The notes below the pieces were generated by a model. That model was not told the origin of the DNA. It saw only the letters and a list, made by a program, of their open reading frames with translations, and did not search any database. Source: Owenia fusiformis (lineage: Eukaryota; Annelida; Polychaeta; Sabellida; Oweniidae). From it: a stretch of DNA of 64,000 nt. The position numbers and the translations under genes are program-made. Below are positions 41,396 through 44,300 of this stretch, one piece after another. The stretch lies in NCBI GenBank assembly GCA_903813345.2, contig CAIIXF020000003.1:19482931-19546930 (forward strand), read 5' to 3'. Numbering within the stretch: the stretch's first letter is position 1; each line of letters starts with the position of its first letter.

Positions 41396-44300
41396 ATGTC
41401 AAAGAACACGAAGGTAGGTGTTTGGTTGTTTAACTTTTCTGAATCGAACATAAATTTTCCATTTGAAAAAGTGAATTTCCGAAGCTTACATTTGTATTAT
41501 TACAGTGTAACTTAAATAACCCCCCCACCTGCCCCCCACTTAGAATTAAAAGGACCTCTCCTTCTTAGTCAGCTCTGCTAGCAGCATCAGCCAGTGCTAA
41601 AAACATGTACTTAGGAAAAGAGGCTAAGTAATATGCCATCATGCGCTAATGTTTATTATACAAAAAATATCCGACTTGAAATAAATATTGATATGATATG
41701 AAAACGAGCATTCAGGGGGGAGTGTGTTTGCAACCATCAGGCACGCCTGTGTGTACAGGTGTACCGTGGCGCTACGCCCATATAGCCTATATATGTAAAT
41801 GTATCTATGTAGACACCCAACATTTACACATCCCCATTGTTTATTGGGCCACATGTCAATGTACTTCCACTCCCGTTCCACTCAAGCTCTTCACTGCTCG
41901 CCTAATTCCTTCATTTTTCCTTTAAACAACACAATAGCGAGCATTGATGTATGAAAACTGTAGTGTTAAATTAACTGTTAATCACTCAAAACTTGCCTCT
42001 TTTTTCAGGAACTTCCTCGTTATCTGACTCGTGACAGAAAACCAAAAGGAATAATGTAAGTGTACATATATTCCGCATTATTTCTATTTAGTGACTCTAA
42101 CTAATATGCAGGAAACTTTAGTAAACTGTACAGAACAGAACTTCAAAGAAACAAAAGAGATGTCTCGGAAATTCTCACATACATGTATAATCATCAACAA
42201 ATTGATGAAATACAGTACAGTTTTAAATAAAGTACATGTATCTCCTTACTGTATCTTTTTACAGTAACAATAGCCTGTCTTTTGCCTGTAGATCAAAGAT
42301 AATAACTAAAGGGTTCACATTATGAAGAATTGAGCAAAGTACAAACATAAATACATGTAGTCTCTCATTTAAAAAATATTTATTCTCTGAATTTTAAATG
42401 ATACATGCTAGTACTTGACATTTACTCAATATCACTCTTAATCATATTAGAGACCTGTGTTTACAAAGAAAGATATTTTGTTTTCAGAGACAGACCTGTC
42501 AGATTCAAATGCTCCCTTCAGAACACAATACTTGATTTATTGAAGGATAGAGGTTGGCAGGAGGTCACAGGGTGAGTTGAAAACAGCCTGAATAATGTCA
42601 TACCATGTCACCTATATTTACTTCTCATTGATTGGTCAACAGGCCCGTAGCCAGAAGTTTCCAAGGGGGTTCACTTTTCCAAAAAATTCTAGGGGTGGTT
42701 CACTTTGGCTTTGGCCAAAAATCACTCAAAAATAGTCAGAATGGTGAAAAACTGCATGATTTTGAAACAAAATTTTGGCCAGGGGGGGGGTCGCCCAAAC
42801 CCCCTGGCTATGGGCCTGGTCAATATCATGTCATGTTTGGTCATTGTCATATTATGTGACATATTTATCTCACTGTATTGTAATATCTTACTTTTTTGGC
42901 AGTTTTTATGAGGAGTTTGACTTTTTCTGGTGCTACAAAGACTGGCTTGAGTGCAATGTGAACCAGTTATACTTCAGAGATCACGTCAGAATTTCCCATT
43001 TTGTCAACCATTCTGAGGTTAAATGAGTATAAATGGCATGTTTTCACAGACTACAGAATGTTCCATATATTTAGGAATGTGACCTCAACCATAATGAAAC
43101 ATGTTTGTTAATAATTTACCATATAAATTATGGAACATTCTGTCGTACAATATAGTTGTAAAATTGTATACGTCTGCACAATATGCCCTCCTATTTATTA
43201 CATCAACATACCCTTCTTTCCTTCCCCTCCTCCCCCTTATCATTTTTTTTCATATCCTGTCACCATAATAACCAAGGTTTTTGTTTCCATAGAGATAGCA
43301 ATGAAGTTTGGGACTTTTACTGGTGCGATGTAGGCTGGATGAAGGAATACTTCGACCATTTCTACATGGAAGAACATATAAAAATTAGTCACTTTAGGAA
43401 CCACTATGAGGTACATGTCTACATATACAATGTTATGTACATACATACCATGTTGCATGTTTCATGGAAAATCATCATTTTTATACCAGTTACCCTTCAA
43501 AAGATGAATTGCTTTTAAGACTACATGTACATGTATGTACTTCATTGTAACTGTAACTGGATATTTGATTTAAACACTTTTGCATTCACATTAGATTTTT
43601 TCCAATTTTTCCTGAATGCCAGTTGACACACCTTTATATTCATCACTATTTATTTTTAATATCAGTACAGTGTTTCAATAATTTAAGCAAGCTGCATTTC
43701 CTTTCGCAATTTCCCTTGATTTTTCCCTTTTCACAATCGTTGAATTAATGCATGTAGTTTTTTTTCCACTTCAGAAATCGACAGAATTTGAATCATTTCT
43801 TCAGTTATAAATTAAAATTGTGTTATTAAATCTAACTAGACTTTTGAAGATTGCAAGCAATCTCACGGAGGCCCTTTTTGACAATTTGAAGGTCAACTAA
43901 AGGACAAATATCAAATCTGAGGTCAGATGTGAACTCCTGAGAACTTGTAGATGATTTTCAAAAAAAGATTTTGTCAATTTGAAGCGAGTTTAAATTTGAC
44001 CTTGGAAAATTTCGAAATTGACCTTTTTTCAACTTTTGAACTTAAAAATATTGGTTTGTAGTCTCGAACTTTGCGAAACTTAGATAGCACTGTTTGTGAC
44101 CTAATTTCATGATCTTGACCTTTGACCTTGAAAAGTTTTTGAAATTTCTACTTTTTTAGACCTCAGTAGGCCTTTTGTAATTAGACTGACCTAAATTTGA
44201 ATCCAAAGACTTAATTTGAAAAATCAACTTTTCTTACCTTTCGAAGGTCATTGAAGGTCAACTAAAGGTGAAAGCTCAAATCTGAGGTCAGCTTTGGACT

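Follow-up and report, generated by a model that had tools for sequence, protein, structure and literature searches.

The window analysed here, a 64-kb stretch of annelid DNA, carries a complete TTLL-family gene on the plus strand (41396-52381), with 14 coding exons per mRNA (Table 1). The spliced translation was open to the stop codon and gave a protein of 437 aa with exon A in the fourth coding position and of 438 aa with exon B. Both forms matched the Pfam TTL domain (PF03133; cut-off, 20.1 bits), the B form with 279.5 bits and the A form with 276.8 bits, and the match began at residue 77. The best relatives of solved structure were TTLL6 and TTLL7. The name TTLL9 is taken from the known sequence of the family. 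The gene was distinct from both paralogues that were read in this genome, L001 and the presumably TTLL1-like L035. Considering the family sequence and the distinctness from the TTLL1-like paralogue, the gene is regarded as a candidate TTLL9. Two of its introns (45853-47231 and 49100-49561) look U12-type when judged by the U12 consensus, with the donors gtatccttt and gtatcctta and with tccttgac and tccttaac just upstream of the acceptors, respectively.

Table 1. Coding exons of the TTLL gene and features around the alternative exons A and B (positions in the window)
Feature	Position	Strand	Remarks
Coding exons 1-3	41396-41413, 42009-42055, 42488-42571	+	open spliced translation
Exon upstream of the pair	42488-42571	+	phase-2 end, ACA GG/gtgagt
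Coding exon 4, alternatives	A 42903-43017 or B 43293-43410	+	open spliced translation
Exon A, 115 nt, diverged copy	42903-43017	+	acceptor cttttttggcag, weak donor GAG/gttaaatg
A-B intron, 275 nt	43018-43292	+	contains hairpin and long pyrimidine tract
Inverted repeat (hairpin)	43050-43146; arms 43050-43067, 43129-43146	+	18-nt arms, 94% complementary
Pyrimidine tract	43209-43261	+	sole site in the window (both strands considered) where 45 or more of 50 nt are pyrimidines
Exon B, 118 nt, family-typical copy	43293-43410	+	donor GAG/gtacatgt
Exon downstream of the pair	45767-45852	+	phase-0 start
Coding exons 5-8	45767-45852, 47232-47265, 47578-47712, 48377-48508	+	open spliced translation
Coding exons 9-11	49012-49099, 49562-49683, 49944-50077	+	open spliced translation
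Coding exons 12-14	51536-51649, 51887-52011, 52302-52381	+	open spliced translation

Each of the exons A and B is directly preceded by AG and directly followed by GT. Their lengths are both 1 mod 3, and they differ by one codon without a frameshift. With a phase-2 end on the upstream exon and a phase-0 start on the downstream one, inclusion of A or B alone keeps the frame, and the included exon then encodes residues 51-88 (A) or 51-89 (B). Re-reading of the sequence and spliced translation bore out the coordinates, phases and peptides that the first-pass annotation had given for the two exons, together with its statement that joining A to B creates the stop AGA TAG: the joint product reads through SER into the stop, which is the first one and falls at codon 90. 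Skipping of both exons, a case that the first-pass annotation had not described, gave GGC TGA, with the first stop at codon 51; omission thus breaks the frame as surely as joint inclusion does, and exactly one exon gives an open protein.

The relation between the two exons was assessed at the protein and DNA levels. A and B have the same residue at 15 of 39 aligned codons, with a local BLOSUM62 score of 99 that was reached by none of 20,000 shuffles (maximum, 64). When B was compared with every stop-free stretch of 20 aa or more in the window (2,023 in all), the one with A scored 99 and the next, unrelated one 45. The other exon peptides (11 tested, with exons 1 and 6 left out as too short) had best unrelated matches of 31-46, and none had such a partner. 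A search of the 498-Mb genome with A at E<=10, in which the best candidates only were scored, returned two matches, A itself and B (E=0.003, 42%), and the DNA of 42880-43420 had no second match in the assembly at E<=0.01. Given that only A and B matched in the window and genome searches, A is a copy of B duplicated in tandem rather than a fragment of some other TTLL gene, in agreement with the tandem duplication that had been proposed from the first reading. At the nucleotide level there are 46 differences between the copies over 114 sites (15, 12 and 19 at codon positions 1, 2 and 3), and the exon-exon alignment was reached by none of 1,000 shuffles. Five of six comparisons of the flanks were unremarkable, with 59 to 224 of 1,000 shuffles reaching the score; for the 60-nt downstream flanks the score was reached by 4 of 1,000 mononucleotide shuffles, and this likeness may be left over from the duplicated intron or may reflect composition. 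The pair could in principle have arisen as an assembly artefact, from two haplotypes or misjoined copies, and this is exceedingly improbable: nothing was found in its favour, the assembly has one such locus, the flanks mostly fail to align, and exons so diverged cannot well be alleles.

The residues of B kept in A are E, D, F, W, C, W, Y, H, IS, HF, NH and E, and the middle of the segment is largely replaced. Residues of the family were also changed in A: the first W of WDFYW to F, Y to F, and NHYE to NHSE. TTLL6 and TTLL7, which share the TTL domain and are different members of the TTLL family, align with the exon segment in their N-terminal part; for TTLL6, the best E value was 0.053 (weak) with A versus 0.00036 with B. 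We know of no alternative form of this segment in TTLL6 or TTLL7.

The splice sites around the pair are U2-like by eye, and the acceptor of A, cttacttttttggcag, is good by the same standard. The donor of A (GAG/GTTAAA) scored -1.6, the lowest of the ten U2-type donors scored (those of exons 12 and 13 were left out), by a vertebrate matrix; 112 of the 572 GTs in the gene region (19.6%) scored at least as high. The donor of B, with a score of 0.9, was the next lowest. Weak donors on A and B are compatible with regulated exons and also with decay.

Comparison of A with B gave a pN/pS of 0.59 (bootstrap, 0.34-1.04; at least 1 in 3.8% of 2,000) at a dS of 1.29, and by itself this pN/pS is not clearly below 1. 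Since constraint on B alone lowers pN/pS, a neutral A beside a constrained B was simulated, with a score of 95 or more as the criterion of similarity and indels not counted. For a B omega of 0.05, 0.1 and 0.2, A was open in 734, 810 and 836 runs of 6,000 each, and it was open and as B-like as observed in 5, 4 and 0; with A constrained at an omega of 0.3, 761 of 6,000 runs were open and as B-like. With every change assigned to A, 40,000 runs gave 4,547 with an open frame, 7 of which were as similar by score (no indels); the contrast was weaker when identities were counted instead, with at least 15 of them in 151 of the 4,547 open runs. Simulation from A as the start gave 2,418 open runs of 20,000, of which 2 were as similar by score (no indels). 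From B to 40% divergence, the AG/GT dinucleotides and the open frame both survived in 1% of 4,000 runs before indels, whose rates in this simulation were assumed values. Given that just 9 of the 18,000 neutral runs with a constrained B were open and similar, selection at the protein level has probably acted on A through a large part of its history, and neutral decay throughout is unlikely. A may have been lost from use recently.

These results bear on the main rival explanation, that A is a relic, a tandem duplicate once used as an alternative exon that is now decaying or silent and has stayed open by luck and recency. We consider it rather unlikely, if a serious candidate. The weak donor of A, the bootstrap interval that extends to 1, the changes at family residues and the sufficiency of B alone for a complete enzyme all suit a relic; set against them are the rarity of open and similar copies under neutrality, the presence of both splice dinucleotides of A at homologous positions, and the lack of any frameshift despite the many substitutions. 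The weak donor would equally suit splicing of A at a low unregulated level, as noise, without a functional A protein, but the simulations place the conservation of A above the neutral expectation, and noise of this kind seems very improbable. Another reading makes A a brake only, whose inclusion together with B would send the mRNA to decay and lower the amount of enzyme, with no A protein made. The immediate stop of the A+B product and the weak splice sites, as expected of a regulated exon, speak for it; however, such an exon would need neither an open frame nor protein-level similarity, and A retains both, so that a brake alone appears improbable.

The pair had initially been described as having built-in mutual exclusion. 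This stands for the reading frame and does not for splicing, where hard-wired mechanisms were sought and not found. Neither a very short intron nor a U2/U12 clash was seen at the pair, as the intron measures 275 nt and the sites look U2-like by eye; a branch point near the A donor may exist, at a yTnAy motif 28 nt from it, but AGs intervene between this motif and B. Competing RNA pairing of the docking and selector type was not found either, with no shared partner within 42400-43800 and one local hairpin. The frame lock thus works on the protein, not on splicing, and in view of the lack of a hard-wired splicing mechanism other exon combinations could form, needing removal by nonsense-mediated decay.

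Considered as a case of alternative splicing, the pair falls in a well-known class, that of tandemly duplicated, mutually exclusive exons, and would be a new case within it. A human survey (PMC5740500) took 6,541 sequence-based candidates to 1,399 validated exons, and for many neighbouring exons that were alike, exclusivity did not hold. The human exclusive exons resemble A and B in being adjacent, with homologous peptides, similar length and the same phase, and in lengths not divisible by three, through which joint inclusion breaks the frame; the present pair differs in lying in a TTLL gene and in being known from sequence alone. Lengths not divisible by three were reported there for 377 (60%) of clusters, proximity of donor and branch point for 57 (9%) and U2/U12 mismatch for 5 (0.79%). 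Judged by these cluster figures, a protein-level frame lock without a splicing mechanism is ordinary for the class. TTLL had 0 occurrences in the main text of the survey. Exclusive exons of the Dscam type (PMC6071210), guided by RNA structure through docking and selector sequences, are comparable in that A and B are likewise separated by an intron with a strong hairpin; the present locus is unlike them in that this hairpin is a single local one, and no docking element shared by two selectors was found in 42400-43800.

Two features of the A-B intron, the hairpin and the pyrimidine tract, could bear on exon choice. The whole intron folded better than all 200 shuffles (z = -3.45). In exclusive exon pairs already known, tracts of this sort are binding sites for repressors of the PTB type. 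That the tract and the hairpin regulate the choice between A and B is put forward as a suggestion only, both features having been spotted after the fact. The whole hairpin element had no second copy in the assembly at E<=0.01. Its 15-nt arm, with at most one mismatch, occurred 204 times in the genome (its own two arms included) versus 55 for a reversed-pattern control, and the excess came mostly through the variant ACAGAGTGTTCCATA within a dispersed repeat. Fifteen arm sites were read, 14 with the ACAGAGTG variant and one with the exact arm; at 11 of them (L061-L067, L069, L071, L072 and L074) the arm lay in one dispersed repeat. The opposite arm was absent within the 601-651 bases read at 14 of the 15 sites, and the remaining one (L060) has an opposite arm with three mismatches. 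An origin of the hairpin as a copy of a transposon or repeat family was not supported, the whole hairpin being unseen at the 15 sites.

Collectively, the evidence favours the reading that A and B, produced by tandem duplication, are used in a mutually exclusive way and so exchange the segment with which the TTL domain begins; from the DNA sequence, we think this probably correct. One TTLL9 exon would have been duplicated in tandem to give A and B. The spliceosome would join 42571 to either 42903 or 43293, and the chosen exon would then be joined to 45767. Each choice would yield a full-length enzyme (437 or 438 aa) that differs in segment 51-88 (A) or 51-89 (B), and products with both exons or neither would meet an immediate stop and be discarded. 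B would be the default form and A would be used in some tissue or stage, with the choice presumably regulated through the weak donors on both exons and the pyrimidine tract and hairpin between them. The A segment may change the contact of the enzyme with tubulin or with a partner. AlphaFold, run on one single-exon paralogue in alignment with a second, gave a mean pLDDT of 32.8, too low for use.

A more specific proposal is that one TTLL9 gene gives two glutamylases in which the exchanged segment, at the start of the catalytic domain, alters the choice of tubulin, axonemal doublet or carrier protein, and which are switched by tissue or life stage, for example between larval ciliary bands and sperm. 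We advance it tentatively, as a doubtful extension of the exclusive-exon reading. The variety of enzymes in the tubulin code is usually put down to the existence of separate TTLL genes. If the exclusive pair is real, a frame-locked exon switch within a single TTLL gene would add a second source of such diversity, and two natural versions of one segment would offer a clean comparison for what the segment recognises; a switch between two glutamylases would be the first exon switch of its kind in a tubulin-code writer.

The claim that no TTLL9 exon pair of this kind had been described is consistent with the open-licence text of PubMed Central, where no TTLL exon pair was found in the literature on TTLL9 or on tubulin tyrosine ligase-like splicing. 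Two reviews of tubulin glutamylation (PMC7970040 and PMC13137484) describe TTLL9 as an elongating glutamylase that acts on axonemal alpha-tubulin and without which flagellar motility suffers in Chlamydomonas and in mouse sperm; they contain no word beginning with 'splic'. A word search of a TTLL11 paper (PMC12366701) and an RPGR-TTLL5 paper (PMC13052805) returned nothing on a role of the exon segment. The one relevant case met in this literature is a different event, a U12/U2 twintron in human TTLL9 (PMC3564746) that gives two protein lengths, 347 and 439 aa. That system is similar in being alternative splicing of TTLL9 with two lengths, and U12-like donors occur in the present gene too; it is dissimilar in that the choice there is between U2 and U12 introns and here concerns a duplicated exon.

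Several other elements were seen in the window. The intron after B holds a repetitive element (43825-45453) in which a 143-nt unit occurs four times (against the reference copy, the other three show 64, 86 and 92%) and a stretch of 300 nt is present twice at 95%. Upstream of the TTLL9 gene, 39393-40591 has a 162-nt inverted repeat (88% complementary) with short repeated units inside, by eye. The intron before 51536 contains at 50560-51312 what seems by eye to be the 3' end of another retroelement. At 4552-7845, an open frame of 1,098 aa with endonuclease and reverse transcriptase domains is apparently a non-LTR retrotransposon.
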